Source: a virus. From it: a DNA stretch of 42,259 nucleotides. A model generated the notes under the pieces. It was not told the origin of the DNA and made no database searches. It saw nothing but the letters and a program-made list of their open reading frames with translations. The translations under genes and the position numbers were made by a program. The stretch covers positions 1-42,259 of the IMG/VR virus record IMGVR_UViG_3300020180_000042. One strand, written 5' to 3'. Of this stretch, positions 1 through 20,838 are shown in pieces; position 1 is the stretch's first letter, and every line of letters begins with the position of its first letter.

Positions 1-160
1 GATTCATCTAGTGGCTTTTTAGGCTCGTGTCGGTCTGGAGATAATCCATGCTCCGCCTGGAACTGTTGAGATCCCTGTACTACTCTTGCGTCGGGTTGTC
101 GGTATCCGGCCTTCTGTGGTGATGGGAGAAGCTCCGCTCCTGCTCGCTGTTGTTGCTGGA
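1..160. repeat. Terminal direct repeat, left copy
   Basis: Positions 1-160 match 42100-42259 base for base except position 34 (t) against 42133 (a). The overlap shows that the contig closes on itself, giving 42,099 unique bases. It may be an assembly overlap of a circular or permuted genome or a true terminal redundancy; sequence alone cannot say. It lies inside the polyvalent-protein gene, and the mismatch changes one codon (Asp against Val), so it may reflect strain variation. Confidence 0.95.
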
Positions 161-2639
161 TGGCGCGGAGTTCGGCTTGGAGTTTAGGGTTTGCTGGCCC
201 TTGAGAGGCTCGGATTGCTTCTGGGTTAAATTGCTGAACCGTTCCCTGAGCGCCTTGGCCTGGACTTTTGATACTGGATATATTTCGTGTGTGTTCTCGG
301 ACGACATTTTTATAATCTCCTTTATCTAAGTAATCGGCGAAACCAACTACCTTGTTATACTTTACGCCTGAATCTTTACTTAACTTATTTATATTATCCC
401 TTAATTCCCCACCAAAGTCAATGATCTCCACTTTGCCTTTGCTTGCGGTTGCTCCGTCTATCCCATGCTTTTTAAGTTGATTGACCAGAGCTTGAGGGTT
501 GTCTGTTTTGAATTCGTATTTTGCATCTTTCCCTCGCCCCTTAGAGAATACTATCATACCGTCTTGGTTGTACTTCTCGCCTATCTCGGCTGCGTAGGCT
601 TTGGTCGAAACCCTGTTGCCCCTTACGGTAGCTTTATAACTTGGCTCTACGCTACCCTGCCAGACTCCGCCAGTTTTTTCCATACCTTCAACTTTTATCT
701 TGTACTTGGGTGCATTGTTATTAACTAAGTTCTCATAACTTTTGGCCCGGGTAGACTCGTAGTATTTGTTGACTGCCGCTAGGGAGTTACCAGGTTTACC
801 CCTGAAGGGAGTTCCGCTCACTTCCCGAGGAAGTGGGATACTCCTAGCATTTGTGCTCTCTCTGACGAGGATCTGGTTCTTAAGTGGCACATCAAGGGTT
901 TTATTAAATGGAGTCTTAATTCTTTCAGCACTACCCATATCTATACGGTTAGCCACGTTGCGCGATTGAGATTCGCCTCCGAGTTTGTAATACCCACTAA
1001 GCCCGGCTTTTTGGGTTTTCCCCCTATTTCCCACAAGGCTGCCAGGTGATCCGCCAGCCGACAGTTTTTCTTTGTCTTGGATGTAGTGTTGGAGTTCGTG
1101 CATTAGAGTTTTCTTGGCCTCAACCCGGTTAGGAGCTAAGACAGAGTGAGTAGTTATCCCATTGGTGGTGGTGGTCTGCCCTCCAGATAAACCCTTACCG
1201 ATCCTTATATTAAGTTCATTGTTCTTGATTTCTGGGTAGTGTCTATATAGTTTGTCGTGCTTTAATACGCCGCCAACAGTTGTTAGGTTTTCTCCGGGGC
1301 GTAGTTTCCCGCCAGGTAGAGCTTTAGGATCTATCTTAATTCTAGCTCCCTTATCGCTGACCTCGATTATTGACTTGCCACTCTTGTCTAGGAAGGACTT
1401 ACCAACACCATCCTTACCAGCGACACCTGGGAGTGTAACATAACCCCCTGGCTTAGACTTTAAGTCTTTTACAACATTACCCTTAATCTTACTGATATCT
1501 TGTTTAGTATAGGGTTTGGTTCCACCACCCATCAAACCAAACAGTGCACCTTGCCAAGGCTCAAAGCCAGTAAGGGGAGCTGTCAGCGCTCCTAAGCCTG
1601 ACCCAGCAAAGGCTCGAGGTAGTGCTTTAACGAAGGGTATCTTGCCGGCGTTAGGGATCAGTGGGAGGACTCCACCTGATATGCCCCCAGCTAGTCCCCA
1701 TCCACCAGCAGATTTTAGCGTATCGGCTACACTCTGACCTTGCATAGCAGAGCTTAACCCACCAAAGGTGGCTCCAGCTCCAGCCCCCGTAGCAGTATTA
1801 GTAGCGATCTTAGCAGCTAGGGGAGCCTTAAAAGCCCCACCCGCGAGCGACCCAGCGGTCTTTCCAGTCCAACTGGCTCCCTTCATAAGTAGAGCTTGTT
1901 CGGCTATCTGGCCTTGGATGCTACCAGCAGTTCGAGATAATTTCTGTATATCATTGTAATCTTCAACCCGGGTAGGCGATAAAGAGTTAGCCTTACCAGC
2001 CTCGGGCGCTATAGCTTCTTTGATGTTTCTTGTTCCCTCATCAATTCTTTTGTATGTTTGTCCGCCATCCAGGTAGTTCTGAGCTATAGCCCCAGGGTTA
2101 ATCTTGGCTCCAAAAGCTAATAGGTTCGAGGCATTTCTCAAGCGTCCACCCATGAATGTTTGATTCGATGGTTCGGCTATCTGTTTGGCTACGGCGTTCT
2201 GGGCTTTGACTAGATAATGCTCAGGGTTCTGGGCTTCAACCGCAGCGAGTGCTGTCGGGCCCGGAAGTGCTGCTGCTAAAAGCGCGTTGTTCTTAGCAAC
2301 CTTAATGGTGTCAATATCTCTTAAGAGTTTTCTGCCTTGATCACTTTGAGCTAGCCCCGCTCTTTGTTCAGGGGTTAGCCTGGAGGAAATATCGGATAGA
2401 GTATTGATTTCCTGGATGGGTTCAATCAAATTCCGTTGGACAAGGTTGATTCCGTTGTTGGCTACTCGGTTGAACCCGCCTATTGCTTGGTTCACAAAGT
2501 TGGGTTGGGGTCGTTGGACAGGAGTGGGGGCTTGGGGTCGGTTGACTACATTATTATAAGTAGCCCCATTATCCCAGGGGTTGACTTGAGCAACAACGCC
2601 TTCAGCCTGTTTCTTAAACCAGTTTAAAAGGGATGCCAT
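1..2639 (-). CDS. Large polyvalent protein, N-terminal part (gene continues across the contig junction)
   Basis: This frame is open from an ATG at 2639 to the left edge with no stop. Through the 160-bp overlap it joins in frame to the gene ending at 37050, giving a protein of 2,562 residues; this part holds residues 1-879. An Ala/Gly-rich, possibly membrane-active stretch lies near residues 260-370. A zincin-like HELQH motif sits at residues 514-518, followed by YIQDKEKLSAGGSPG. That pattern recurs in phage polyvalent proteins, where it is read as a metallopeptidase. Such proteins are thought to enter the cell with the DNA and to disarm host defences. The gene starts 7 bp after the stop of 2647-3678. 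Enzyme activity is inferred from the motif only. Confidence 0.9.
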   Translation of the reverse strand, partial: MASLLNWFKKQAEGVVAQVNPWDNGATYNNVVNRPQAPTPVQRPQPNFVNQAIGGFNRVANNGINLVQRNLIEPIQEINTLSDISSRLTPEQRAGLAQSDQGRKLLRDIDTIKVAKNNALLAAALPGPTALAAVEAQNPEHYLVKAQNAVAKQIAEPSNQTFMGGRLRNASNLLAFGAKINPGAIAQNYLDGGQTYKRIDEGTRNIKEAIAPEAGKANSLSPTRVEDYNDIQKLSRTAGSIQGQIAEQALLMKGASWTGKTAGSLAGGAFKAPLAAKIATNTATGAGAGATFGGLSSAMQGQSVADTLKSAGGWGLAGGISGGVLPLIPNAGKIPFVKALPRAFAGSGLGALTAPLTGFEPWQGALFGLMGGGTKPYTKQDISKIKGNVVKDLKSKPGGYVTLPGVAGKDGVGKSFLDKSGKSIIEVSDKGARIKIDPKALPGGKLRPGENLTTVGGVLKHDKLYRHYPEIKNNELNIRIGKGLSGGQTTTTNGITTHSVLAPNRVEAKKTLMHELQHYIQDKEKLSAGGSPGSLVGNRGKTQKAGLSGYYKLGGESQSRNVANRIDMGSAERIKTPFNKTLDVPLKNQILVRESTNARSIPLPREVSGTPFRGKPGNSLAAVNKYYESTRAKSYENLVNNNAPKYKIKVEGMEKTGGVWQGSVEPSYKATVRGNRVSTKAYAAEIGEKYNQDGMIVFSKGRGKDAKYEFKTDNPQALVNQLKKHGIDGATASKGKVEIIDFGGELRDNINKLSKDSGVKYNKVVGFADYLDKGDYKNVVREHTRNISSIKSPGQGAQGTVQQFNPEAIRASQGPANPKLQAELRAIQQQQRAGAELLPSPQKAGYRQPDARVVQGSQQFQAEHGLSPDRHEPKKPLDE

Positions 2640-2646
2640 TTTGGGG

Positions 2647-3678
2647 CTATCCTGTCTTGTTAGTTTGTTTCTTGCCTAGTAAAGCTGCAAGGTAGGGTGA
2701 AAAGTAATCGGTATTTGATTTCTGCCCTTGGTAGGTTGGCGCAGCGTTAGGATTGGTCGTGTAAGATGATAGGCTTGGGGCTTTATACGCTTCAACTGAG
2801 TAGTTGATTGGGCTTGTGGTGTAGTTCGCGGTTCTGTCTAATATGGAGTTAGCCTGATCAAGATATGGTTGAGAAGCACCTGTTCCGTTACCACCAGCCA
2901 CCTGATCTCGCTGTCCCGCTAACTGGGCAAGGCTTTGGAGTAATGAGGCTCGGTTGTTGTCGATCTGTCGCTGTAGTTCAGATTTTTGTTGATCTCTCTG
3001 GTGTCCAGCACCACTTACTTGATTATTATACCCTTGCATGAAGTCTCCCCAGCTTTGATCAAGACCCTTTATGTTAGCCCCGAAAGTGTTGGATAGATCA
3101 TTGCGCTGTAGTGTGGCTTGGCGCGAGACAGCTTGTGGCCCAGCTACTTCGTAGGCGCTACTCCCACCAGCTCCTCTAGCTCCCATCAATCTTTGAAGGC
3201 TGTTTAACGTTGACCCAGCGTTAGCGCCAACCGTATTCTTACCTGCGATATAGTTAGTTCGAGTTGTTTTAACATTCTCATCATAATTGCGCTCGCCCTG
3301 GTTCTTGCCACCTAGTAGTTGATTGATAGCATTTTGGTAGGATGAATCGATCCCGGAGTAACCAGAGTTGAGTTGAGATCCTAAGCGATCGATAGCACTC
3401 TGGGTATTATTGATGGACTGGTCAAAACTTCTAAGAGCGTTGGAGTCAACAACACCACCACCACCAGTAGTAGCGCGCCCAGTATTAGCACCGTTAGCAA
3501 AGGTTCCCTGAAGTTCTTGAAATGAAACTCCAAATGGATTGTCTGAGTATTGCTGTGCTAGAGCGTTGACATCGTTGGGCCCGTACCGGCCAGCCAATGA
3601 TCCTATTGTTTGATAGAACGCGTCTCTATTAGCTGCTGTGTTCTGGGGTACAATTCTGCCTTCTGTATATGGTGTCAT
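2647..3678 (-). CDS. Helical internal-virion-like protein of unknown function
   Basis: A 343-residue protein rich in Gln, Asn, Ala, Ser and Gly, with long helical stretches (about residues 80-130 and 200-255) and a poly-Gly hinge near residue 75. I chose the ATG at 3678 because GGAG lies 8 nt upstream; a longer reading from a TTG at 3693 would begin inside that site. It sits directly upstream of the polyvalent protein gene in the late operon. In short-tailed phages this place often holds small internal or ejection proteins, so an ejected or internal head role is a reasonable guess. I do not recognise a named family. Confidence 0.85.
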   Translation of the reverse strand: MTPYTEGRIVPQNTAANRDAFYQTIGSLAGRYGPNDVNALAQQYSDNPFGVSFQELQGTFANGANTGRATTGGGGVVDSNALRSFDQSINNTQSAIDRLGSQLNSGYSGIDSSYQNAINQLLGGKNQGERNYDENVKTTRTNYIAGKNTVGANAGSTLNSLQRLMGARGAGGSSAYEVAGPQAVSRQATLQRNDLSNTFGANIKGLDQSWGDFMQGYNNQVSGAGHQRDQQKSELQRQIDNNRASLLQSLAQLAGQRDQVAGGNGTGASQPYLDQANSILDRTANYTTSPINYSVEAYKAPSLSSYTTNPNAAPTYQGQKSNTDYFSPYLAALLGKKQTNKTG

Positions 3679-3800
3679 GTTTTTTTTCTCCAAGATTAAA
3701 TATGATAATCCTCAGAGGCTTGGTATCGCTCTTTGAAGCGTAGCTGGTGTTTTGTATTCACCTTTGCCAATCCCTTTAATTGTAGGCTTACTATCGATGT

Positions 3801-5900
3801 TTAGTCAACCAAGGCGAGATCGATGGTTGGTGGTTGGGTAATGCTTATATCATCAGATTGAGTTTGTATTATTATCTCATCGGCAATCGTGGCTGATCCT
3901 GACACAGTCGAGTCGGTATCTATAATTACGATTGAATCAAATAGTTTTTTTACCGTGATTTCAGTTGCCAAAGCTTGTTGGGTAAATATTTGATCAACCC
4001 TCTTAATGGCTAAGATATCATCGGCTACACCTCGTATCTCTTGGCTTGGGCTAGGACTAATACTCGCACTCGCACTCGATGATGGACTCACACTGGCTGA
4101 TGCCGATGCTGAGGGACTGCGTGATGCCGAGGGACTAGTCGATGCCGAGGGACTAGTCGATGCCGAGGGTGATGCGCTCGAACTAGGACTAATACTCGCA
4201 CTCGCACTCGATGATGGACTCACACTGGCTGATGCCGATGCTGAGGGTGATAGCGATGCGCTTGGCGATGTTGAAGCTGATGCTGAGGAACTAGGAGAAG
4301 CACTACCACTCGGTGAAGTTGATGCCGAGGCCGAGCTTGATGGCGATTGACTACTACTAGGTGATGCACTAGCTGAGATCGATGAACTAGGACTTACGCT
4401 TGCACTAACAGATGCCGATGGACTTACACTGGCTGATGCCGATGCTGAGGGACTGCGTGATGCCGAGGGTGATACACTGGCGCTTGGTGATGTTGAAGCT
4501 GAAATGCTCGAACTAGGACTGCGTGATGCCGAGGGACTAGTCGATGCCGAGGGACTGCGTGATGCCGAGGGTGATGAACCTTCAATATAAGTTACAAAAC
4601 TCACATTATAATTGAAGGCCGGGGGCGAACCAGTAGGAGTGCCTAGAGAAGATACAGTCTGTCCTGTTGTGACTGTTACTGTATTTGTTGTGTCGCTTTT
4701 TATTCCAAGTTCATTGTTCCAGACGATCAAAGGGTTTCCGGCCACTGCGTTTACTGATGTTTGTATTTGGTAAGACTTAGCAGCACCTTGCAAGATTCCG
4801 GTATAACCGTATAATTTTCTGATCACACAAGCTGTGACAAGTGTGCTTACTGCTGATTCAGTGGCACTTATCGAATCCCCATTAGGGCCAAAGTACACAA
4901 GGCCAGACGAACTTATTGTCTGAGGCTCTTGTATTTGAACCGACTCACCATTTATATAAGGATCAAACTCAACACCTAGGGTTATCACTGTAAGATTATT
5001 CGCAGCGAGACAGTCCCAATATAAAGTATCTCCTGCCGATACCTCTAGGCGCGTTTCATCTGTTGTGTTGCTACCTGTTTGGCTACCATCAGCTATAGTT
5101 ACGATTGCGCTAGATGCTACGCCGTTAAGCACCAAGCCTATTCGCATCGAGCCACCAGATTGAGCTGTACCACAATAGGCATAAATATTCTTAATTGTGC
5201 CGTTGGTTGGTATATGTATTGCATGACCTGTACCTGTCACACTTGAACCATGTAGGGCCATTTGGGTGCTGAAAAACATCGAGGCGGTAGATGTTCCTGT
5301 GATCATGCTCACGTTGTTGGCATCGGAGGTTACGATGGCTGTTGCTCGGAACACGGTGCTGCTAGTTGGGGAACCTGTTACTGTATTCCTAAACTGGAGT
5401 ATGTCTCCGGCTACAAAACTAACTGTGTTACTTGTATCATTGCCTGTTGTTGAGCCGGCGTTAATAGTAACCACCATCGAGGTTGCGACACCATTTTTCA
5501 TCACTGTTACTGTGCGAGCTGTACCTGCTCCAGTTGGATTACCTATTTCGATGTATAAATTCTTAAGTGTACCGGTTATAGGCATTACCGACTGTCTGTT
5601 GGCTGCCGCAACACTCCAAGTATGACCCGTTGTACATTGTAATGGAGTGTACAGAGTTGAGGTGGTCATGGAACCGCCACTACACATCATCAATACTGTG
5701 TCCATCGATCCAGCGGATATGCTAGGCGATGGTGATCTTGACGAAGACGAACTTGGTGAGCGCGATGGCGAAGATGATCTTGACGAAGACGAACTAGGTG
5801 AGCGCGATGCGCTAGGTGAGCGCGACGCCGATGGTGAGCGCGACGCCGATGGTGAGCGCGACGCCGATGGTGAACGTGATGCGCTTGGTGAGTCAGCCAT
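3801..5900 (-). CDS. Virion surface protein with Ser/Pro-rich tracts at both ends
   Basis: A 699-residue protein. Residues 4-60 and about 442-620 are SPSASxSPS-type repeats. Between them, residues 65-440 form a Thr/Ser/Gly-rich beta region with about three related units, each with a pattern like GTxKNxYxxxG followed by GDTLxF. Residues 620-699 form a separate acidic tail with alternating Ile and Asp. It lies 20 bp downstream of the stop-to-start gap after the glycosyltransferase at 5921-7570, in the same operon. The composition fits an exposed fibre or decoration protein whose Ser tracts could be O-glycosylated. The function is inferred; only the architecture is seen. SD AGGAG lies 10 nt before the ATG. 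Confidence 0.9.
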   Translation of the reverse strand: MADSPSASRSPSASRSPSASRSPSASRSPSASRSPSSSSSRSSSPSRSPSSSSSRSPSPSISAGSMDTVLMMCSGGSMTTSTLYTPLQCTTGHTWSVAAANRQSVMPITGTLKNLYIEIGNPTGAGTARTVTVMKNGVATSMVVTINAGSTTGNDTSNTVSFVAGDILQFRNTVTGSPTSSTVFRATAIVTSDANNVSMITGTSTASMFFSTQMALHGSSVTGTGHAIHIPTNGTIKNIYAYCGTAQSGGSMRIGLVLNGVASSAIVTIADGSQTGSNTTDETRLEVSAGDTLYWDCLAANNLTVITLGVEFDPYINGESVQIQEPQTISSSGLVYFGPNGDSISATESAVSTLVTACVIRKLYGYTGILQGAAKSYQIQTSVNAVAGNPLIVWNNELGIKSDTTNTVTVTTGQTVSSLGTPTGSPPAFNYNVSFVTYIEGSSPSASRSPSASTSPSASRSPSSSISASTSPSASVSPSASRSPSASASASVSPSASVSASVSPSSSISASASPSSSQSPSSSASASTSPSGSASPSSSASASTSPSASLSPSASASASVSPSSSASASISPSSSASPSASTSPSASTSPSASRSPSASASASVSPSSSASASISPSPSQEIRGVADDILAIKRVDQIFTQQALATEITVKKLFDSIVIIDTDSTVSGSATIADEIIIQTQSDDISITQPPTIDLALVD
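4042..4575 (-). repeat. Coding Ser/Pro repeat tract, C-terminal in the 699-residue protein
   Basis: Low-complexity coding repeats built from 6- to 15-bp units for SPSAS, SPSSS and ASAS. A 65-bp block at 4051-4115 is repeated exactly at 4183-4247, 132 bp away, and a partial copy lies near 4413-4460. All periods are multiples of three, so gain or loss of units would keep the frame. Confidence 0.9.
5721..5891 (-). repeat. Coding Ser/Pro repeat tract, N-terminal in the 699-residue protein
   Basis: Tandem SPSASR units (18-bp period, five in a row and almost identical in DNA) begin at the fourth codon, then change to SPSSSSSR units. The near identity of the DNA repeats points to recent expansion. 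Confidence 0.9.
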
Positions 5901-5920
5901 TTTTTAGACTCCTTTTAGTT

Positions 5921-7570
5921 TTATGGCTTTATTATACCTTCAAAGTCTTCATCGCTCCAACCAGGGATATTCTTAACTCTAGTTGTTTCCAGATTGGTTG
6001 CTGTGCTCTTATCTCGAAAATCTTTAAGGCTCCACTTGTCTCCAGTCAAGTTGTTATCATGCCTGATGTCTATGTAGGGGACTGAGGCTTTCCATGCAAC
6101 AGAACCGCGCCGACTCATAGGCTCAAAGCTACGCTTAAATGTGGCTTCATTGTAACTGGCTACTCGCTCTTTGTAGTGTTCAATTAAAATGTCTCTGTAA
6201 GCACACAGACCCGAGACTTGATCGGCGTCCCAGTGAATCGCAAGACCATCCGGACGAACCTTCCACCAGTTCTGATCATAATAAAACTTGGTTCGATCAG
6301 GAGGCGTGAAGTTAAAATGTTCAGGCGGGTATAGTACATCGTGTTCACAGAAGAATATGATGCTTGCTGTAGATGCTTCGAGTGCCGATAGGATCTGTTT
6401 AAACATAGTTAGATATCCGCGCTTCTCTTTAATATGTATATTAGTTCCCATATTATCCATTGGCTTAAGTGAGGCACTAACAATCGCCATTCCTTTAGCT
6501 CTGCTTATCTCCCTGATTCGCTTTTGAACCGGGCGGGCTATTCTTAGCTTTAACTGGTTATCGGTAAAGTAGATCATCCCCTTAGTAGGTGAGATGGTCT
6601 CCTGTAATGGTACTAACTTAAGAGCTTCAAGTTGCTCTTTAGTCCACCCCTGCACAGGCCAGAACTTCTCTATCAGCCAAGATAACGGGTATTTCTGTAG
6701 AGGCCAGGCGTTTTCGAAGAATAATGTCCGAGCTTTAGACTTAGCCTCCTCGACTTTGCTTTGCTGCTGCTGGTAGGGGAAGCTAAAATCCCCACCTTGA
6801 GTACGAAACATGTGTGCATACCAGGTAGTCTGCAATACCATGACTTCACCACCACTGAGCCAAGTCTTAACGGCTACCTCAATTCCTTGCGATCCCCAAC
6901 TACCAAAACTCTCGTCACAAATGCTTAGTTCCCAGTATTTCTCCCGGGTAAGCATGAAGAAGCTACCTTGCAAGCTCATGGTAGGAGTGATGTCCCCTTG
7001 GCCTTCTGGGCGCTTGTTCCACTCTTTAAAGTATTGAAAATGTGGTTCACTATCAAAGCAATAGCTCTTAGACTGAGGTGAAGGCTTGGCGTACCACAAG
7101 ATCTTACGCTTAAAGTTGAGTTTTCCACAGTCTTCACACTTATCGATTCCGTTGCGTGTACCTGGCGTTGGACCCTGGTAATATTTCTTCCCACAATCCA
7201 TACACTTCCAGTCAAAAGCGTGTAGGTTGCGCATAGTAGGTACAATAGTCCAGTTATCGTGTCCTTTCATAGCCTCCATGAGCTTGACATCAAACCCCTC
7301 ATCAAATGAGCAGTGGGCGTCGGTTTTAGCAAGGTATCTGGCCTTAGACAGTCGAGCCAGCCTGTTAGTCATAGCGCGTTGGCCGATAGACTCCGACACA
7401 TAGACTATCTTTACGTCGGGGTGGTCGGTGATGCCAGGATCAGCCCAGGCTCCATCAAGCCCGACAATTACCTCGGTTTTACCACGCCGATGCTCTAAAA
7501 TGTCTTCGACCGTTTTTGCCAAGAACATCTCGCTGCGTGCTGGTATTAGTATGCTGAGGTCGTATTTCAT
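5921..7570 (-). CDS. Two-domain glycosyltransferase with GalNAc-transferase-like motifs and an inserted zinc ribbon
   Basis: A 549-residue protein. The N-terminal GT-A domain (about 1-300) has the family-2 start DLSILIPARSE, a metal/sugar-nucleotide motif TDAHC (Asp84-Ala-His86) and SFGSWGSQGIEVAVKTWLSGG at 221-241 followed by His253. That order of DxHC, WGxxxxE, WxxGG and H is the signature of mucin-type polypeptide GalNAc-transferases. A four-Cys zinc ribbon (C123, C126, C145, C148) is inserted in this domain, which is unusual. A second GT-like domain (about 330-549) has CEHDVLYPPEHF and resembles the neighbouring 224-residue protein. The gene overlaps 7567-8241 by 4 bp. Role inferred: a sugar transferase acting on phage or host glycans, perhaps on Ser-rich virion tracts. 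Confidence 0.85.
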   Translation of the reverse strand: MKYDLSILIPARSEMFLAKTVEDILEHRRGKTEVIVGLDGAWADPGITDHPDVKIVYVSESIGQRAMTNRLARLSKARYLAKTDAHCSFDEGFDVKLMEAMKGHDNWTIVPTMRNLHAFDWKCMDCGKKYYQGPTPGTRNGIDKCEDCGKLNFKRKILWYAKPSPQSKSYCFDSEPHFQYFKEWNKRPEGQGDITPTMSLQGSFFMLTREKYWELSICDESFGSWGSQGIEVAVKTWLSGGEVMVLQTTWYAHMFRTQGGDFSFPYQQQQSKVEEAKSKARTLFFENAWPLQKYPLSWLIEKFWPVQGWTKEQLEALKLVPLQETISPTKGMIYFTDNQLKLRIARPVQKRIREISRAKGMAIVSASLKPMDNMGTNIHIKEKRGYLTMFKQILSALEASTASIIFFCEHDVLYPPEHFNFTPPDRTKFYYDQNWWKVRPDGLAIHWDADQVSGLCAYRDILIEHYKERVASYNEATFKRSFEPMSRRGSVAWKASVPYIDIRHDNNLTGDKWSLKDFRDKSTATNLETTRVKNIPGWSDEDFEGIIKP

Positions 7571-8241
7571 CTGTATAGCTCGATTATACCAGAGGCCGAG
7601 CCCCAGTGGGGAATAGTAATAGCCCTGAACTCTCCGAGGCGCTTGCGTGTCCCTAGCCCCGAGAATGACAGCTCGGTCTGGTGTGAGAATATTATGTTAG
7701 GGGGGTTGGTGTAGAAAACCTCACTCTCTCTAACTGTTACGCCTAGTTGTCGCTCATACTTGGATGGCTCCGCCCATAGACCAGCATCAGCTTCGTCATT
7801 AGGGTATCTCGTGAAGCGCTCCTCCATAGCCTCTATAAAAAGCTTCCTGTCACATATTAAGGAGTTTAGGTTCTTTCTGACTGTTCCTTTATGACTAAAC
7901 ATCGGATCTCCCCAAGTATAGATCGACCATGCTCCGAGGTTGTAGGCAAACTTTCTTCCTTTAGGTCGGTACTTGAAATGCTCAGGGCTATATAAAACAT
8001 CATCTTCGCATAGCGCGATGTATTTTGTAGTAGCTTCCTTGGCCCCGATCAGTGCTTGCCGATAGATATTGAAATGACTAGGTTCAAAGTCGACTGTTAT
8101 GTTATGCCCAAAGTGCATCGGCTGTTGAGAGACTGTGATTAGGGGAATCTCGCCAATGGCTTCTAAGAGGTGTCTTTGGGTGTTCTCAGCAAAATGATCG
8201 CTGATTCGATTGGCGGTATAGTAGATTGCGGAGATATCCAT
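7567..8241 (-). CDS. GT-A fold glycosyltransferase-like protein
   Basis: A 224-residue protein with ALCEDDVLYSPEHF at residues 76-89. The acidic cluster CEDDV sits where GT-A enzymes place the metal-binding DxD. The same block, CEHDVLYPPEHF, occurs in the C-terminal half of the next gene, so the two are paralogous and the fused domain probably arose by duplication. The upstream neighbour 8247-8888 ends 5 bp before its ATG, and its own stop overlaps the 549-residue gene by 4 bp, so translation is probably coupled. The donor and acceptor cannot be told from sequence. Confidence 0.75.
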   Translation of the reverse strand: MDISAIYYTANRISDHFAENTQRHLLEAIGEIPLITVSQQPMHFGHNITVDFEPSHFNIYRQALIGAKEATTKYIALCEDDVLYSPEHFKYRPKGRKFAYNLGAWSIYTWGDPMFSHKGTVRKNLNSLICDRKLFIEAMEERFTRYPNDEADAGLWAEPSKYERQLGVTVRESEVFYTNPPNIIFSHQTELSFSGLGTRKRLGEFRAITIPHWGSASGIIELYR

Positions 8242-8246
8242 TTTTT

Positions 8247-8888
8247 TTACTTCTTATTCCTTACATATTCGAGATACTTACACTTTGTGTAGTCCTCCTC
8301 TATTACATTGTAAGTGGCTCCGGAGTGTTCGATTGCTGATGGGAGCGATAGCTGATCAATAGAGTGATACAGCGAAGTCTGTAACCACCAGATAGTCAGA
8401 GCATCGCGAGCTGGTGTATCGTTCTTGTAAATAAAAGCAGTTGACGCGAACAGTTGAGCCATCGGATCAATTACGGCGAGCTGGTCATCGATGCGCTCAT
8501 TCTCGTAGCGCGGTGTGATGTACGGACATTTCTTAGCCAGGCGCTCTTTGAGGTAGTCAGCTTCGGCTTGTACAGTCTTGCGTTGCGGGTGCTTAAACAC
8601 TGCTATGTCCTCATCGCCTAGCTGTTCTAAAAACCATTTAACTGAGTCCTTGTGGGATAGTCTGCATGAGCTATCCACCCACAGGTAGTTTTCATAACCA
8701 GGATTCATTTGCCATGACATCATTTTAGGTATGCGAGCCTGTAGCCGGGGAGTCATAGAATTCATCCGGGGTAGGAAGTTAGCATCTGTATATAACTGGA
8801 AGTCACACTTCATCGATTGTTTGGCATGATGGACTGGTTTATCAAAACCTCCCAGGTTAGCAGATACTACTAGCGTATGAACATCCAA
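8247..8888 (-). CDS. DUF616/TOD1-like putative glycosyltransferase
   Basis: A 213-residue protein. Motifs include NYLWVDSS (68-74), FKHPQR (98-103) with a following EA pair, and a later run of polar residues before a Trp-Trp. This order resembles the DUF616 (TOD1/MUCI70) glycosyltransferase-like family, from memory. The start is TTG at 8888, with GAGGGG 8 nt upstream; no ATG or GTG is available near the site. It overlaps the methyltransferase gene by 19 bp. It is part of the sugar cassette. Substrate unknown. Confidence 0.7.
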   Translation of the reverse strand: MDVHTLVVSANLGGFDKPVHHAKQSMKCDFQLYTDANFLPRMNSMTPRLQARIPKMMSWQMNPGYENYLWVDSSCRLSHKDSVKWFLEQLGDEDIAVFKHPQRKTVQAEADYLKERLAKKCPYITPRYENERIDDQLAVIDPMAQLFASTAFIYKNDTPARDALTIWWLQTSLYHSIDQLSLPSAIEHSGATYNVIEEDYTKCKYLEYVRNKK

Positions 8889-9505
8889 GACCTTGACCCC
8901 TCTCTAACTTCGCCAGGAACGACTGCGTCTGATCCCAATACAAACCAAGGATCGATGTTATTATCTCGGGTGTACTTTTGGATAGCATCTTTAACCGCCC
9001 ACTCCACTCGCTTGACTCGAACATAATCATGCCCAGCTACAATGCCCCCCTTGCGTACCTTGGGAGCCCAAGTGTTGATGTCTTGTGTAACCCAAGGGTC
9101 TTGGTGGTTGGCGTCTATGTAGACAAAATCTAGCGATCCATCGGGGATGTCTTTGGCTGCGTCTTCGGTGAACTTTCTTATAACCTCAAACCTACCTCGC
9201 TTGACGTACTCGGCCATGCGACGCTCGACTTCTTCGTGCATCGTGTTAAATGTGCTTTCTTTGGTGTAATCTGTATATCCTTTGTAGGGAGCCCAGGCAT
9301 CTACTCCGATGAGCTTGAGTTGAGGGTTAATCTCACAGATAGTTTTTGAGAACTCGGCTTGGGCCACCCCCAGCTCGGCTCCTATCTGGAAGTTTAACTC
9401 TCTAAACCAGCGTACCAGATCCATTCGGCCCACGTTGGGTATCTGGACTGGTAGCCCTTCGTTAATCCTATTAAACTTATTCTCAATAAATGCTAGTGTG
9501 TCCAT
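8870..9505 (-). CDS. Class I SAM-dependent methyltransferase (Methyltransf_24-like)
   Basis: A 211-residue protein with the SAM-binding loop IGAELGVAQAEF (residues 41-52), an acidic end of strand 2 (LIGVDAW, 65-71) and motif DFVYIDANH (126-134), followed by GGIVAGHDY. This is the pattern of the Methyltransf_24 group often found in sugar and surface-polymer clusters. I chose the ATG at 9505 because AAGGGGA stands just upstream; longer readings run into the previous gene. It probably caps or modifies a sugar by O-methylation, which is an inference from its place among glycosyltransferases. Confidence 0.85.
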   Translation of the reverse strand: MDTLAFIENKFNRINEGLPVQIPNVGRMDLVRWFRELNFQIGAELGVAQAEFSKTICEINPQLKLIGVDAWAPYKGYTDYTKESTFNTMHEEVERRMAEYVKRGRFEVIRKFTEDAAKDIPDGSLDFVYIDANHQDPWVTQDINTWAPKVRKGGIVAGHDYVRVKRVEWAVKDAIQKYTRDNNIDPWFVLGSDAVVPGEVREGSRSWMFIR

Positions 9506-9561
9506 AGTCCCCTTCTCTTTATTAGTATTTGAGCCAGTTTCAGGTCGTGGCTCAGGACGTT

Positions 9562-10062
9562 CTACAGTTTTCCCTCGATTATCTCTCGCACAATCTCTTT
9601 CACCTTGAGCCGACGGCCTGGGATGTTGAGTTCGCACGACCATTCAGGAATCAGGCCAATCCAGTACAGAAACTCGGCTTCATCCACCACATAGCGGTAA
9701 ACATCCTGAATATCGAACTTCCCTCCGGCGTTGATCTTTGCCCTTAAGAAGTTGATGATGGTATGTGGATTATTGCCGAAGCTGATGTTGCCGATCCGTA
9801 CGATTGTGTAGCTCGGGAAGCTACGCTTGATCGTATCCTCCATAGCCCGCTTATGATGCACATAGGGGGTGTCCCCATAGAGCACTGCCAGCGAACTGAA
9901 GTACACGAGGTGTAGGCTTGTGTCCTGCGACGCGAGCAGTTCTATTTCGCGTATGTATTCCGACTCCCGGGTTTCGCCGGAGTTACTGACACCCGATGCG
10001 AAGAAACAGAAACCTTCACGATCCTTTAATACGCTTGCGATATCGCCATGTCCAACAATCAT
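9562..10062 (-). CDS. Short NAD(P)-dependent sugar epimerase/dehydratase-like protein (extended SDR)
   Basis: A 166-residue protein with SDR-like features: FASGVSNS (21-28), the Ser-bearing strand YFSSLAVLYG (54-63), and the catalytic pair Tyr67/Lys71 in YVHHK, followed by the usual VRIGNISFG strand. Normal family members have about 250-330 residues. Here the N-terminal dinucleotide-binding half is reduced to MIVGHGDIA, so the protein is minimal or depends on a partner. It overlaps the next gene by 4 bp. Probably supplies or modifies a nucleotide sugar for the cassette. Confidence 0.75.
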   Translation of the reverse strand: MIVGHGDIASVLKDREGFCFFASGVSNSGETRESEYIREIELLASQDTSLHLVYFSSLAVLYGDTPYVHHKRAMEDTIKRSFPSYTIVRIGNISFGNNPHTIINFLRAKINAGGKFDIQDVYRYVVDEAEFLYWIGLIPEWSCELNIPGRRLKVKEIVREIIEGKL

Positions 10063-11027
10063 TTCTCGACTCCTTTCCTCATATTAGATAGCCAGTAGTC
10101 ATCCTTGTAGCCTAGAACCGAGTAGTCTTTCTCTCGATCCACTTCGACCTGCTCCTTCCAGTTCTCCGGCCAGCCAGGAACCGGCCAGAACTTTTTAAGC
10201 AACCAGTCAAAGTCGTATTTATACTCTTGAGTGTTCAGCCACTTCTCGATGCAATATAGTCTGCCTTTTTCGTTCCATTCGGCGTGTTTCTTATATTGTT
10301 CAGTTGAGAATCCGTAGCCTTTGCCCTTAGAGCCTTTGTGGAAGTGGGCGTACCAAGTATTCTTGTTGACCACCACCCGCCCGCCAGAGAGCCAGCAAGT
10401 GTTGGTGATTTCTTGTGCCTCTTGAGTAAATGGCCCGTACTCATTCGAGTCAAGCCCATTAGGGAATAACTCATACCAGTAGTCTCGTTTCAGAAAATAA
10501 CAACTACCCTGACAGGTCATCACATCATCAATCTTAACATCTTTACAATCCCTACCACGCTGACGGTCTTCAGCTCCGTGTAAGCCTTGAGTCTTATCGT
10601 AGGGCTTGGCGTAGGGGTAATCGATGTACATGTAATCTATGTCTGGACGCCCATCCTCCACCAGCGACCAGTTCTCGGCATCTAAGCGCTTGCGTCGAGG
10701 TATTACTACCCAATTATCCTCCGTATTGGCTAATAGCTTGAGATCCCATCCCTGATCGACCATGCAATGTTCGTCAATCTGGAATATGTACTCCCCTCGA
10801 GCGATATCTACACCAAGGTTAATACTCGGGCGCATTCCATAGTTATTGTGAACTTCCCCATGATGTATAACAGTTACCCTTTTGTCATCTTTCAAGACAG
10901 GTTCGGGCCAGTACCCATCAAGAACAACAATAACCTCCACCTCACCTTCAGCCTTGTCCATGACATCATCAACTGTCTTTTGGAGGTACTGATCAACTCT
11001 TGAGCTAATTACTATACTTACCATCAT
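10059..11027 (-). CDS. GT2 glycosyltransferase with GalNAc-transferase-like DxHC motif
   Basis: A 322-residue protein. It begins VSIVISSR and continues VIVVLDGYW, as in GT-A family 2 enzymes. The metal/sugar motif is IDEHC (Asp85-Glu-His87), then a GSCYFLKRDYWYEL strand, GPFTQEAQEITNTCWLSGG, and AHFHKG. The C-terminal signature WLLKKFWPVPGW matches WLIEKFWPVQGW in the 549-residue enzyme, so the two are paralogues. The start overlaps the preceding gene by 23 bp, with AAGG 7 nt upstream of the ATG. The motif order is like mucin-type GalNAc-transferases, though many bacterial GT2 enzymes also have DxH, so the sugar is uncertain. Confidence 0.85.
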   Translation of the reverse strand: MMVSIVISSRVDQYLQKTVDDVMDKAEGEVEVIVVLDGYWPEPVLKDDKRVTVIHHGEVHNNYGMRPSINLGVDIARGEYIFQIDEHCMVDQGWDLKLLANTEDNWVVIPRRKRLDAENWSLVEDGRPDIDYMYIDYPYAKPYDKTQGLHGAEDRQRGRDCKDVKIDDVMTCQGSCYFLKRDYWYELFPNGLDSNEYGPFTQEAQEITNTCWLSGGRVVVNKNTWYAHFHKGSKGKGYGFSTEQYKKHAEWNEKGRLYCIEKWLNTQEYKYDFDWLLKKFWPVPGWPENWKEQVEVDREKDYSVLGYKDDYWLSNMRKGVEK

Positions 11028-11784
11028 GGATTAACCTTGTATTATAATTCAGCATACTGTTTGTTAGTATTGGATCAAACCCGCAACTCTCAGCCCATGA
11101 TGCCCAACCAAAAACATCTTTCGGAATACACTTCGAGTTTGCCCCGCGATCGTTTGGATAAACAAAGCTAAACCATAAATCAAACCTGGGGTCGTCTCCA
11201 TAGACTGCCTGTCGAACATTGTAATAATCCACTCCACCAGCTTCACATGCGTCGTATAGTTCCTGACATTGTGCGACCTTGAACATTATGGCTCTATTCT
11301 CAGTCAACTTCACAACTTCTGCCTCTAGGTTAGTGAGTTGACGGATGTTCACGTTAGCATTGTAAACTTGTTGATAAACTTCAATTGCCTTACGCCTGTT
11401 CTCGGCTTCTCCGCCAATAATCATAAATGGGCGAGCCCCCTGGTCTGATAGGGGATGGGCTGTGGTCTCACCGAGGTACTCCGGCTGAAACACAATATGC
11501 TTTTCGTACTTGTCTTCTAAGTGGTCACAAGTCCCTGGCATTATGGTCGAGCGAATAATAATTAGATCTTCCTTGGCTTCTTTAACCACCCCCTCAAGGA
11601 TTGAAGTATCAAGTGAGCCATCTTGCTTATTGGGGGTAGGTACACAAACAAAAGCAACATCACACTTTGCCTTATTCATGAAACCCTGTTCAGGATCATG
11701 GACTACTGCATGAGGAAACAGGCTTTGCATCGCTTTGCCAACCCAACCCAACCCGTAAATTTTGATTGTAGACTTCACCACCAT
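11005..11784 (-). CDS. UDP-glucose/GDP-mannose dehydrogenase family protein lacking the C-terminal domain
   Basis: A 259-residue protein with NAD-binding GLGWVG (11-16), CVPTPNKQDGSLDTS (47-61), IRSTIMPGT (78-86), the central helix region TNLEAEVVKLTEN, and the catalytic-Cys block SKCIPKD (Cys219). Usual members have about 400-450 residues with a C-terminal UDP-binding domain, which is absent here. I chose the ATG at 11784, preceded by AGGG; the longer reading from 11865 lacks a site. It would oxidise a nucleotide sugar to a uronic acid, if active in this short form, feeding the glycosyltransferases downstream. Confidence 0.85.
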   Translation of the reverse strand: MVVKSTIKIYGLGWVGKAMQSLFPHAVVHDPEQGFMNKAKCDVAFVCVPTPNKQDGSLDTSILEGVVKEAKEDLIIIRSTIMPGTCDHLEDKYEKHIVFQPEYLGETTAHPLSDQGARPFMIIGGEAENRRKAIEVYQQVYNANVNIRQLTNLEAEVVKLTENRAIMFKVAQCQELYDACEAGGVDYYNVRQAVYGDDPRFDLWFSFVYPNDRGANSKCIPKDVFGWASWAESCGFDPILTNSMLNYNTRLIHDGKYSN

Positions 11785-11809
11785 AATATTCCCTATTTTA
11801 TCACATTTC

Positions 11810-12139
11810 TTAAGTGCGGGTAATATCACTTTGCACGATGAACTTGCCTCGGTAGCTAGAAACATAACCGCCCGAGGTATCTATAAACTCCGCATCATAC
11901 CAGTAGGTCCCAGAATCAATGTTTGTGTCTGTGTGCGTAAGTGTAAAAGTATGTTTTCCTGTCGAGGGGCTTGTAAAGTTAGTAGCAGTCTTTTGAAATT
12001 TCAAGTTTGCCACATCGTTTGTCGGATCGGAGCTACTCTGAACAGTAAAATATACAGTACCTCCGGCTAGGTTGATGGGAGTTGATCCATCTGAGGCTAA
12101 GAACGTTAGGTTCACAGTTCGGGTGTCCCCTCTTATCAC
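11810..12139 (-). CDS. BppU-like N-terminal domain protein (baseplate/fibre Ig-like domain)
   Basis: 109 residues from the GTG at 12139. The sequence IRGDTRTVNLTFLASDGSTPINLAGGTVYFTV and the end GTYWYDAEFIDTSGGYV resemble the N-terminal beta domain of phage baseplate upper proteins (BppU) and similar fibre or head-fibre proteins. No SD precedes the GTG, but a perfect AGGAGG (12175-12180) stands 5 nt before an in-frame ATC at 12169, so translation may begin ten codons earlier. It lies between a Ser/Pro-tail virion protein and the sugar cassette. Likely a small virion attachment or decoration domain. Confidence 0.75.
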   Translation of the reverse strand: MIRGDTRTVNLTFLASDGSTPINLAGGTVYFTVQSSSDPTNDVANLKFQKTATNFTSPSTGKHTFTLTHTDTNIDSGTYWYDAEFIDTSGGYVSSYRGKFIVQSDITRT

Positions 12140-12174
12140 ATTGTTGATGGTTTTTCCTAATTTAGCGATGATAT

Positions 12175-12180
12175 CCTCCT
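12175..12180 (-). promoter_or_regulatory. Perfect Shine-Dalgarno site without a standard start codon
   Basis: AGGAGG on the minus strand is followed by ATATC and then in-frame ATC GCT AAA, leading into the BppU-like gene. The first ATG/GTG/TTG in that frame is the GTG 36 nt further on. This suggests ATC initiation or an uncommon arrangement. Confidence 0.5.
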
Positions 12181-12844
12181 ATAAGAAATCTGGCGATGGT
12201 GAAGCACTCGAGCTACTAGATGCGCTAGGTGATAGCGATGCGCTAGGTGAGCGCGATGCGCTAGGGCTTACAGAAGCCGAAGTTGAACTTGATGGACTTA
12301 ATGATGAGCTTGGGCTTATAGAAGCACTAGGTGAAATTGAGGTTGATGAGCTAGGTGAAATTGAAGCTGAGGGTGATAGTGATGCTGACGTACTCACGTC
12401 TGCGTAGTTTGAAGATACCCCGCCATCATTGCTGATTGGCCTCCATAAAACTGTAAACTTGATTGTCCCAGATGCTACTGGAGCAGTTGCAATAGTTAAA
12501 ATAATGTCATCGGTTACTATTTTCTCCGCTACTACGGTTGAGACTTCCACGCTAGCGTCAGGTGTGGCATCGTGCCATATTTCATTTAAGCCTATGGCTG
12601 TACCTGTGGTCTGTGCGATAAGTCCAGCTGTAGTCTTTGCTGTGCCTACTTCTAGTGTGGCTGAGGCTCCGGCTAGGTTTACCTCACAAACTGCAATAAT
12701 TTTTACAGCTACTATACCTGTTACATTAAATAATGTATATGCACCAGCAGTTCCAGCTACGTTGCCTGTTCCAAACTTAATCTTGGCGTGATCTTCTATC
12801 CCGTGTCCTGCGATTATATCGTATGTGTTTGAACGACTAGTCAT
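12179..12844 (-). CDS. Virion decoration-like protein with C-terminal Ser/Pro tail
   Basis: A 221-residue protein. Residues 1-150 are Ala/Thr/Val-rich with alternating strands (VKIIAVCEVNLAGASATLEVGT, then a C-terminal strand FTVLWRPIS), as in head decoration or beta-sandwich proteins. Residues about 151-217 are SPSAS/SPSSS repeats like those in the 699- and 820-residue proteins. The tract ends five residues before the C terminus, so it would hang free from the folded domain. It lies downstream of the major capsid gene and just upstream of the sugar cassette. A capsid surface role is inferred from position and composition. Confidence 0.85.
   Translation of the reverse strand: MTSRSNTYDIIAGHGIEDHAKIKFGTGNVAGTAGAYTLFNVTGIVAVKIIAVCEVNLAGASATLEVGTAKTTAGLIAQTTGTAIGLNEIWHDATPDASVEVSTVVAEKIVTDDIILTIATAPVASGTIKFTVLWRPISNDGGVSSNYADVSTSASLSPSASISPSSSTSISPSASISPSSSLSPSSSTSASVSPSASRSPSASLSPSASSSSSASPSPDFL
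12185..12390 (-). repeat. Coding Ser/Pro repeat tract, C-terminal in the 221-residue protein
   Basis: SPSAS, SPSSS and SISPS units in tandem, the same type as at 4042-4575, 5721-5891 and 35588-36016. The DNA units differ in codon choice more than those at 5721-5891, so this copy looks older. Confidence 0.88.
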
Positions 12845-13700: not shown

Positions 13701-14537
13701 CTATGCCGATAGGTGATAACGAATGCCCACAGCCTTGTTGGTTGGGACAAACACATCGTAATATCGGCGACCTTCTGCAACCGCACCATCAATACCTTGA
13801 ACATCCGTGAGGACTCGAGTGCTATTGAATTTCATGGGGCGGATCAAAGCCTCTTCCCAGATGAACAAGAAGACTTCGTTGGTTGGTAGGTAGGTACTAG
13901 GTATTTTTACCAAAGTAACGCCATCGACATTTCCGATGATACCCTTTTTAAGGTCAGCCATCGTAGTATCACATGAACGCATAAAAGTTGTGTCTTGTTT
14001 GAGCATGCTGTAAGTAGCTGGTGACATGAAGCAAAATCGTCCAGTCTCCGGGACTTTAGCTTCAGTCATAGCATCGTTTTGTGCTAGGAACTTCTGGTAA
14101 GCGTTAGAGCTAGTTACCGCAGCGGTGGCTCCTTGACTGGCTGTTAGTGCGGTAGCGTGAGCTTGTGCCAGTGTATAGATATCTGTATTCGGTACAGATA
14201 CTTCACTAACTTGTCGCTTAACTGCTTTGTGAACCTCTTGCACCATCATCGAATCTTCCAAGTTTCCTCGGTCAACGCTGAAGGTAAATGATTTGTCTTG
14301 ACTTAGCGTGAAAGTCTGTTGCCCTGTCCCAAGTTCGTTCAGTGTCCCGAAGCGGTTTGAGCCAGATCGTACATAGTTGTTCTCAGAAACAACATTCACA
14401 GTGTAAATAGTTACACTATTTTTGCCGTTGAAGTCTAAGCGGATTCCGCCCTTATTAACTATCCCGGCGGTTTTTGTGGCTAGGTGTAATCGCTCGTCAA
14501 TTTGATCGAGTGTTGCACTTGCATAATTTTGTGCCAT
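13701..14537 (-). CDS. Major capsid protein (HK97-fold type)
   Basis: A 278-residue protein. Seen: an N-terminal helix (YASATLDQIDERLHLATKT), an extended beta region with QTFTLSQDKSFTFSVDRGN, a helical spine with EVHKAVKRQV, the stretch GRFCFMSPATYSMLKQD, and a C-terminal YYDVFVPTNKAVGIRYHL. This order fits capsid proteins of the HK97 fold, and the gene follows portal and scaffold genes. It has a strong AAAGGAAAT ribosome site shared with 12937-13365. No protease gene or cleaved delta domain is evident, so assembly probably relies on the separate scaffold protein. Confidence 0.88.
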   Translation of the reverse strand: MAQNYASATLDQIDERLHLATKTAGIVNKGGIRLDFNGKNSVTIYTVNVVSENNYVRSGSNRFGTLNELGTGQQTFTLSQDKSFTFSVDRGNLEDSMMVQEVHKAVKRQVSEVSVPNTDIYTLAQAHATALTASQGATAAVTSSNAYQKFLAQNDAMTEAKVPETGRFCFMSPATYSMLKQDTTFMRSCDTTMADLKKGIIGNVDGVTLVKIPSTYLPTNEVFLFIWEEALIRPMKFNSTRVLTDVQGIDGAVAEGRRYYDVFVPTNKAVGIRYHLSA

Positions 14538-18234: not shown

Positions 18235-18434
18235 TCCTTGTCCTCCACAAATACTTCGCCAGGTCTATACATATAGACTTGTTGAGCCCAAACTTTGCCC
18301 TTGTGTTTGCGCATTATTTTGAGTTGGGTTCCATCGGGTTTGGGTTCTCCAAAAAATAACACCTCCCCAACATTCATTCTTTTTCTACCCTCCTTAGATA
18401 ACTCCGGTGTTAAGTCAATCCATTTCATGCCCAT
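18231..18434 (-). CDS. Small protein of unknown function after the large terminase
   Basis: A 67-residue basic protein with an SH3-like or small beta-barrel pattern (GEVLFFGEPKPDGTQLKIMRKHKGKVWAQQVYMY, seen in two parts). It overlaps the terminase end by 10 bp and the next start by 4 bp. Family not recognised. Confidence 0.7.
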   Translation of the reverse strand: MGMKWIDLTPELSKEGRKRMNVGEVLFFGEPKPDGTQLKIMRKHKGKVWAQQVYMYRPGEVFVEDKE

Positions 18435-19621
18435 AACCCCACAATGTTGCCACTCTTATATATTTTCTTTTCATCCTTGCTTGGGCGCATCGACTCCAAG
18501 CCATAACGGATAGCGTCCATTGCATCAGAGAAATCGTGATCGGGGGTGTCAATTACGAACCCTTCGCGATCAGTTTTCCACATGTAGTTCCTATAACTCT
18601 TTATAACATTTGTGGAACGCTTAGTAACACTCATGCGCTGTTCTTGTACCCATTGGATTCCCTGGTTACGACTACCTGCTCCCTTCTGAGCTCCAATAAT
18701 CTGCACTCCATACTCAAGCATCTCCGCGATGGACTTTGGCTCGGCGGAGTCTGCTATCACTAGAACACTGGTCAGCGCTGAGGAGTTGATGTAATCCGCC
18801 ACCTTACGGTTACTCATGTGGGTGCGATGGATCAACTCATCCACGACATACCCCCCATTATACGAATAGAGCGCTACTAAGGCGACTGGATCGTTGGCAT
18901 AACCAAAGTCTAGCCCGAGGCGTTCTAGTCTGGCTTCATGCGGCACTTTATCAATGATAGCCCAATCCTTATAAATTTTACCTTCCACTTCGCCGAGTTG
19001 CCCGAGCCCATAGACCTTCCACCAGCTCTTGTTGTGTTTGCGGGCTTCGATTGCTTTCACGATTTTCTCATCTAGAGCCTCATTATCCTTATAAGTTAGG
19101 GTGATGAAGTCGAGATCTTCAGCCCGGAACGGTAAAACTTCCGAGTAGAACCAAAACTCGTTGGTTGGATTCCAATCTAGCCAGATCTCTTGCTTGGTGC
19201 GAACTTCTAACTGATCAAAGGAATGATACGGACAGTTATTAGCCTCATTCATAAATAGGATATCACGCCGGGGCCCGCGTACCTTGTCGGGCGAGTCCAC
19301 CCCAAAGAACTCCATTTTCACATTAGGCCCGAAGTTGTAGCTAAAATCAGTCCTATTATACTGAAACTCCTTAAAGTATCCATGTCCCTCCATGATATTT
19401 ATAAAATCTCGCATCGCACCACGTTTAAGGTGAGGCAATGATTCTGACACAACTGAAACTAGCAACTGTTCATTCTTGTTAGCTGCTATCTGGCACTTGT
19501 CTATTAGAATTAAAAGAATCGAAATTGTTTTCGAGGCCGAGGTTCCGCCGGCTACGGCTTTGATTCGCTTCTTTAGTGCTAAAAGTTTATTTGTTCCTGT
19601 TACAGCTTTGTACTCACCCAC
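18425..19621 (-). CDS. terL: Terminase large subunit (ATPase and nuclease)
   Basis: A 398-residue protein read from the GTG at 19621 (AAGGAG 6 nt upstream); a TTG one codon earlier is possible. Walker A is AGGTSASKT (24-32). Walker B is DILFMNEAN (120-128), with Asn-Glu in place of Asp-Glu. The RNase H-like nuclease follows: LDFGYANDP (Asp238), VLVIADSAEPKS (Asp291) and DHDFSDAMDAIRYGL near 361-375. It cuts and pumps DNA into the procapsid at the portal. It is short compared with most large terminases but has every core motif. The promoter at 19642-19664 lies directly upstream. Confidence 0.95.
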   Translation of the reverse strand: MGEYKAVTGTNKLLALKKRIKAVAGGTSASKTISILLILIDKCQIAANKNEQLLVSVVSESLPHLKRGAMRDFINIMEGHGYFKEFQYNRTDFSYNFGPNVKMEFFGVDSPDKVRGPRRDILFMNEANNCPYHSFDQLEVRTKQEIWLDWNPTNEFWFYSEVLPFRAEDLDFITLTYKDNEALDEKIVKAIEARKHNKSWWKVYGLGQLGEVEGKIYKDWAIIDKVPHEARLERLGLDFGYANDPVALVALYSYNGGYVVDELIHRTHMSNRKVADYINSSALTSVLVIADSAEPKSIAEMLEYGVQIIGAQKGAGSRNQGIQWVQEQRMSVTKRSTNVIKSYRNYMWKTDREGFVIDTPDHDFSDAMDAIRYGLESMRPSKDEKKIYKSGNIVGLWA

Positions 19622-19641
19622 CAAGGACTCCTTTTGTTTCT

Positions 19642-19664
19642 ATTATACCATTACCTAATCGTGT
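19642..19664 (-). promoter_or_regulatory. Extended -10 promoter for the large terminase
   Basis: Minus strand TGGTATAAT (TATAAT at 19642-19647) with no good -35 box. AATGGTATAATAGAAACAAA here matches AATGGTATAATAGATACAAA at the small terminase, with one difference in 20. The 18-bp repeats directly upstream could be activator or repressor sites. Confidence 0.6.
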
Positions 19665-19704
19665 AGCGATAACTAATCGTGTAGCGATAACTAATCGTGT
19701 ATAA
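19655..19704. repeat. Tandem 18-bp iterons
   Basis: CTAATCGTGTAGCGATAA occurs at 19655-19672 and 19673-19690, then a third partial copy begins at 19691. They sit directly upstream of the terminase -10 box and may bind a regulator or an initiator. Confidence 0.8.
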
Positions 19705-20175: not shown

Positions 20176-20268
20176 CGATTGTAAGAGGTCATAAGGGATT
20201 GTAAGAGATTGTAAGAGGTTATAAACGATAGTAAGTGAGTTGTAAGTGAGGTTATAAGGGGTTATAGG
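20176..20268. repeat. Iteron-like repeats around TGTAAGAG and GGTTATAAG
   Basis: Five TGTAAG(A/T)G-like units and four GGT(T/C)ATA(A/G) units alternate. The irregular spacing and A+T richness resemble origin iterons. Confidence 0.6.
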
Positions 20269-20773: not shown

Positions 20774-20838
20774 ATTATACCATTGAATACCCTTAATTAC
20801 CCCTTAAATTACCCCTTAATTTACCCTTAAATACCTTG
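20774..20838 (-). promoter_or_regulatory. Late-operon promoter with helically phased upstream repeats
   Basis: An extended -10 TGGTATAAT (TATAAT at 20774-20779) lacks a -35 consensus. Upstream on the minus strand, TTAAGGGGTAA-type units recur with centres near 20792, 20803, 20815 and 20826, plus a weaker one near 20835, at steps of 9-12 bp. One helical turn apart, they would put a bound factor on one face of the DNA. Confidence 0.6.

Follow-up and report, generated by a model that had tools for sequence, protein, structure and literature searches.

A cassette with GT27-like glycosyltransferases and its serine-rich tract partners in phages and Patescibacteria

Known glycosylation systems and the present locus

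Mucin-type O-glycosylation by family GT27 is generally regarded as eukaryotic and mainly animal, and the family acts on polypeptides, not on lipids. Serine-rich repeat adhesins are O-glycosylated in the cytosol by GtfA/GtfB, which are GT4-type enzymes, and leave the cell by accessory Sec export. The locus described here lies in the 42,259-bp record of an uncultured phage that was analysed at full length (hereafter, the window). As in GT27 systems, its enzymes combine a predicted GT-A fold with a DxH and distant His site and with WG...E and W..GG motifs, and their partners are Ser/Pro-rich tracts. Unlike GT27, the cassette enzymes lack a ricin lectin domain and a membrane anchor, and carry a Cys4 insert and an extra C-terminal domain. 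They also occur in bacteria and phages rather than eukaryotes, the tracts contain Ser almost without Thr, and donor and acceptor are putative. Long serine-rich tracts encoded beside transferase genes, together with the cytosolic action proposed below, recall the GtfA/GtfB adhesins, but GT27-like enzymes and nearby tat genes are found here, whereas GT4-type enzymes and accessory Sec operate there.

In phages, virion glycosylation is established in the mycobacteriophages Che8, Corndog and Myrna (Freeman 2023, cited in PMC12619734, PMC12363180). According to the passages on these phages, the glycosyltransferases are phage-encoded, as in the window, and the targets are capsid and tail proteins, which are the proposed targets here. 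The hosts differ, the glycans are proven there and predicted here, and those passages report neither S-x tracts nor GT27-like enzymes. Nucleotide-sugar genes have also been described in Patescibacteria phages, where they were read as changing the host surface (PMC12911398, PMC10980836). The window shares such genes and probably the same kind of host, whereas the parts of both papers that treat these genes do not mention tract substrates or GT27-like enzymes. Searches of open-licence papers gave no earlier description of SPSAS tracts with DxHC enzymes, of GT27 in phages, or of Patescibacteria surface glycosylation of this kind.

The sugar cassette and the serine tracts

A PHROG search placed terminase, major capsid, endolysin and tail-fibre genes in the window (Table 1). 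No tRNA genes were found in it, and positions 1-8000 had no related DNA among named phages and plasmids. We infer a Patescibacteria host for this phage. The terminase was not used for the host call, because its two matches among 380 Patescibacteria genomes are too thin (one at 55%, partial and at a contig end, the other 25% identical). Elsewhere in the window, a 1,619-aa protein (37050-41909) has only a short match to PHROG 3170 and may sit inside the virion or be injected. A 160-aa protein at 25560-26042 is made of 45-bp repeats, INANDIFARNINAYD-like, and resembles pentapeptide-repeat proteins. Short tandem repeats of 10-30 bp (19655-19701, 20177-20260 and 20790-20835) lie near a ParB-like gene (20857-21636) and could be iterons or partition sites.

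Table 1. Features of the window, with positions and supporting matches
Feature	Position	Strand	Remarks
IMGVR_UViG_3300020180_000042	whole record, 42,259 bp		IMG/VR virus record; genes on minus strand
TRACT1, 699 aa	3801..5900	-	two S-x tracts; begins 21 bases past the GT549 reading frame
Tract 1b, 182 aa	4038..4583	-	TRACT1 aa 440-621; 98 Ser
Tract 1a, 65 aa	5706..5900	-	TRACT1 aa 1-65; SPSASR repeats; 36 Ser
GT549, GT-A enzyme, 549 aa	5921..7570	-	DxHC + H253; Pfam GT2 4.6e-5
p224, probable glycosyltransferase, 224 aa	7567..8241	-	homologous to GT549 C-terminal domain; GT-like at E 0.024 only
TOD1/MUCI70-like glycosyltransferase, 213 aa	8247..8888	-	TTG start; PF04765 2.3e-5
Methyltransferase, 211 aa	8870..9505	-	from likely internal start 9505; PF13578 2.4e-14
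Short SDR-type nucleotide-sugar enzyme, 166 aa	9562..10062	-	weak PF13460 0.0035, below cut-off
GT322, second DxHC GT-A enzyme, 322 aa	10059..11027	-	PF00535 2.8e-11
UDP-sugar dehydrogenase, 259 aa	11005..11784	-	PF03721 + PF00984; TIGR03026 7e-30
TRACT2, 221 aa	12179..12844	-	beta domain + C-terminal tract aa 153-221 (12182-12388)
Major capsid protein (context)	13701..14537	-	phrog_422 2.9e-48
Terminase large subunit (context)	18425..19624	-	phrog_5653 + phrog_2, about 1e-30
TRACT3, 820 aa	33845..36307	-	tract aa 97-249 (35561-36019) inserted; beside tail-fibre + lysis genes

The sugar genes form a compact cassette (5921-11784) in the order UDP-sugar dehydrogenase, GT322, short SDR, methyltransferase, MUCI70-like glycosyltransferase, p224 and GT549, with TRACT1 following about 20 bases later. 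A preliminary description made from the sequence had read these seven genes as a dehydrogenase, an SDR, a methyltransferase and four glycosyltransferase-like proteins. That reading holds, with a weak match for the SDR and p224 at the score listed. The dehydrogenase keeps the catalytic-Cys motif SKCIPKD and lacks the C-terminal domain; its relatives in phages and Patescibacteria match across the same short length. The short SDR has relatives 55-64% identical in phage and Patescibacteria cassettes, and the methyltransferase start was chosen by ribosome-binding site and overlap. Transmembrane segments are absent from GT549 and GT322 (maximum KD19 1.23), and the cassette enzymes in general have no strong hydrophobic segment. 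Searches of the cassette with Pfam and NCBIfam gave no match to a GT4-type GtfA/GtfB pair.

Around this cassette, three proteins carry four S-x tracts that total 469 aa and 256 Ser. In one register 94-98% of positions are serine, in the other 10-18%; the alternate positions hold Pro, Ala and other residues, and Thr is almost absent. Chance is ruled out as their origin, since a phage of 42 kb would come nowhere near a run of 10 or more S-x pairs at random. Simple DNA slippage is ruled out as well, because the longest tract mixes both serine codon boxes (42 AGY, 56 TCN) and TRF detects short arrays only in the tract regions. Terminase and capsid genes share the window with the phage glycosyltransferases, and the adjacent tract proteins are structural candidates whose role as targets is presumed.

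TRACT1, TRACT2 and TRACT3 have no Pfam or PHROG family match. The TRACT2 gene directly follows the capsid genes, and its N-terminal domain was modelled at pLDDT 75.6. Capsid or cement proteins of Pam1, KHP30 and KHP40 are among the top six PDB matches of this model. Resemblance to trimeric capsid cement proteins is treated as a lead only, because the E-values are weak (2.5e-3 to 7e-3). TRACT3 is a conserved protein, and two relatives share the insertion site of its tract; a PDB search found no relative for it. A P22 gp10/nozzle-type kinship with a protein of MW202692 was considered for TRACT3; the gene position fits, but BLASTP gives E 0.099, so the kinship is not claimed. We infer that the tract proteins are located on the virion. 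The preliminary description had gone further in calling all three virion proteins and in placing SPSAS/SPSSS tracts at both ends of TRACT1: the tracts exist, but tract 1b stops short of the extreme C terminus, where a 78-aa tail follows.

Enzyme family and genomic distribution

Profiles built from 18 rows per enzyme were searched against all PDB sequences. The best match was GalNAc-T1 for GT549 (E 4.5e-12) and GalNAc-T4 for GT322 (E 6.8e-11), and in both searches every GT2 enzyme ranked lower. With the AlphaFold model of GT549 (pLDDT 89.1), Foldseek returned GT27 structures at ranks 1-39 and chondroitin polymerase as the first non-GT27 enzyme at rank 40, at GT549-GT27 TM-scores of only about 0.4, a value probably due in part to the extra domains. 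GT27 is thus the nearest solved family to both enzymes by profile and to GT549 by fold, which places neither among lipid- or polysaccharide-acting GT2 enzymes.

The motifs agree with this placement in part. The sequence does contain TDAHC, IDEHC, SFGSWGSQGIEVAVKTWLSGG and the histidine of WYAH, as first described. In the 18-row GT549 alignment, D84, H86 and H253, the predicted metal site, are invariant, and the Gal/GalNAc-T motif WGGENxE keeps WG and the last Glu but not the first (WGxQGxE). No Pfam lectin match of the C-terminal ricin type was obtained for GT549 or GT322, and neither has a hydrophobic segment that could serve as the type II membrane anchor of GT27. GT549 bears a zinc-ribbon-like Cys4 insert (CxxC...CxxC, aa 123-148) within its GT-A domain (6593-7570), conserved in the family with the second Cys replaced by His in some members, and, from about aa 330 to 549, a C-terminal domain that is a homologue of p224. 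Both elements are new relative to GT27. Because of the insert, the added domain and the absent ricin lectin domain, we describe both enzymes as GT27-like without assigning them to GT27. GT549 has no relatives among named phages and plasmids, and GT322 none among named phages.

Co-occurrence was followed in virus records from several starting points. A tract-first scan used the tract DNA pattern as query without reference to enzymes and gave 120 loci; tracts were present in 74, and enzymes in 23 of these 74 against 0/46 of the others. At the level of whole records, an enzyme accompanied a tract of at least 60 aa in 36/54 cases versus 0/46 without a tract (Fisher 8e-14, for counts that are not independent events, since phages and hosts share ancestry). 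The proportion was 18/19 in records that reach 35 kb and have a tract of 150 aa or more, and 1/18 where tracts were shorter. Records without tracts are not extreme in GC (37/46 below 0.55).

The enzyme-first scans gave the same picture. GT322 detected at least 315 viral loci, and among the 80 kept for counting, tracts occurred in 16/16 of those that reach 20 kb and in 34/37 of those that reach 15 kb, with 101/101 tracts on the enzyme's strand. GT549 led to tracts in 16/17 viral loci, the one exception ending 2 kb past the enzyme; a tract ORF lies near the GT549-type gene in 31 of 32 viral loci, on the same strand in 30 and downstream in 25. Close relatives of the capsid protein whose sequence reaches far enough have both TRACT2 and the cassette, whereas L041 and L021, the two distant relatives whose sequence extends beyond the capsid gene, have neither. 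Four data sets, which overlap in a few records (e.g., L020 and L141), agree that tracts and DxHC enzymes are not independent. The preliminary description had named two outcomes that would speak against it, independence of tracts and cassette and a firm place for both enzymes among lipid- or polysaccharide-acting GT2 enzymes, and neither was obtained. Terminase is found in 31/50 virus records with the enzyme and/or tracts, so most of these are real phages.

The remaining 18 of the 54 records have a tract of at least 60 aa and no enzyme; many are fragments, as is G075, and several have other sugar genes. Long S-x tracts stand with methyltransferases and an epimerase in G079 (L163-L164), with an epimerase and radical SAM in G070 (L170), and with GT2 and radical SAM/B12 in G081 (L172), in each case with no DxHC enzyme. 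Such cassettes could be other systems that modify tracts of this type. In G051, no other sugar-type genes were seen by eye.

The pair is not confined to phages. A scan for GT549 relatives in 84,980 bacterial and archaeal genomes yielded 43 cellular loci. The titles of at least 37 place them in Patescibacteria groups (Saccharibacteria, Woesebacteria, WWE3, Levybacteria and others), four are bins without a name and two belong to other phyla. They include one 916-kb chromosome and contigs of 240-744 kb. At L191 and L216, DxHC enzymes occur in contigs that were binned with Planctomycetota and Myxococcales; genuine spread, phage contigs and misbinning are all conceivable explanations. Such loci are uncommon, occurring in 6/380 sampled Patescibacteria genomes.

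In Patescibacteria, the cassette precedes a giant tract protein. A tract ORF is on the enzyme's strand in 27/40 usable cellular loci and downstream in 26; nine of the 13 loci without one end less than 2 kb past the enzyme, and several contigs end within a tract. Of 31 genomes with tatC, 18 have it on the enzyme's contig, about 5-15 kb away, and the Saccharibacteria order is tatC, tatA, small protein, cassette. In L175, L182, L195, L207, L210 and other Patescibacteria loci, tatC is within about 15 kb of tract protein and cassette, as is tatA in Saccharibacteria. The cellular tract proteins inspected have no obvious signal peptide. The Saccharimonadales contig L175 repeats the window's gene order (dehydrogenase, GT322, SDR, MUCI70-like glycosyltransferase, p224, GT549), with methyltransferases and one RGP-type glycosyltransferase interleaved; after GT549, a glycine-rich protein runs into an SPSSS tract at the contig end. 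In the GT549 tree, in which several forks are weakly supported, the window groups with rows from phages and with two from Saccharibacteria. Phage and cellular rows are interspersed, a pattern consistent with repeated exchange between phages and cells. The proposal of a phage-encoded mucin-like system is therefore upheld in its tract-enzyme link and its nearness to GT27, but not as something specific to phages, as Patescibacteria chromosomes carry the cassette and the giant tract protein.

Proposed function, alternatives and implications

With moderate confidence, we read the cassette as a cytosolic O-glycosylation unit for Ser/Pro tracts, which would act on a presumed surface protein in Patescibacteria and on virion proteins in phages. 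The dehydrogenase, SDR and methyltransferase would supply or decorate sugars; a uronic-acid-type sugar from the dehydrogenase and a capping group from the methyltransferase are guesses. GT549 and GT322, through their GT27-like DxH...H metal site, would start and extend O-glycans on tract serines, which p224 and the MUCI70-like protein may lengthen. Lacking any strong hydrophobic segment, the cassette enzymes would work in the cytosol on freshly made tract proteins, before assembly in the phage or export in the cell. In cells, the substrate would be the giant tract protein, which probably resides on the surface and whose gene adjoins the unit, often near tatC. Phages would carry the unit with tracts grafted onto structural proteins, namely a probable capsid cement protein, a tail-adjacent protein and TRACT1. 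The virion would then exit in a mucin-like coat, with a capsid and tail that look like the tract glycoprotein of the host; its particle is probably clothed in a copy of the host's sugar coat. Such a coat may aid docking, conceal the particle from surface defences or stabilise it, and the evidence favours none of these. Mucus binding, raised in the preliminary description, found no support. A coat that mimics the host surface or interacts with it is a likelier guess, since the same cassette and a giant tract protein are present in Patescibacteria chromosomes.

An unlikely alternative is that the cassette alters the host surface (a lipid-linked glycan, an O-antigen-like polymer or a host tract protein), aiding host attachment or blocking other phages, while the phage tracts are flexible linkers only. 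Patescibacteria own tract proteins that a phage enzyme could modify, and nucleotide-sugar genes of their phages have been read in this way in the parts of PMC12911398 and PMC10980836 that treat them. This would leave unexplained why the tract gene usually lies right beside the enzyme on the same strand and why tracts and cassette are gained or lost together among capsid-protein relatives; GT27-like enzymes would moreover be expected, from what is known of the family, to use polypeptides, not lipids.

Less probable by some distance is that both enzymes, as GT-A synthases, make polysaccharides or lipid-linked oligosaccharides and only resemble GT27, their linkage to tracts arising because both are common in the phages of one host group. 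GT27 stands above all other families in profile searches and, for GT549, in the fold search, transmembrane segments are absent, and tract and enzyme are tightly adjacent; on the other side, Pfam assigns both enzymes to GT2 only, chondroitin polymerase appears at fold rank 40, and host-linked confounding remains in the counts. Sugar hypermodification of phage DNA by these enzymes, an activity known for other phage glycosyltransferases (Pyle 2024, as cited in a passage of PMC12619734), is scarcely credible given the GT27-like fold of GT549 and a cassette that adjoins a tract protein and tat genes in bacterial chromosomes.

The reading as a cytosolic O-glycosylation unit has a wider form, on which our judgement is evenly divided. 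Patescibacteria would have a mucin-like O-glycosylation system, linked to tat, whose GT27-like enzymes modify giant Ser/Pro surface proteins, and their phages would have acquired it repeatedly to coat their virions in the same glycan as a disguise or docking device, the module moving between unrelated phages and hosts. If true, GT27-like mucin-type O-glycosylation would extend to ultra-small bacteria and their phages, and the many sugar genes of Patescibacteria phages would gain a substrate logic. It would also hint at how these phages find hosts whose life is spent attached to other cells, or stay hidden on them. A DxHC enzyme beside an S-x tract is a signature that may flag Patescibacteria and their phages in metagenomes.
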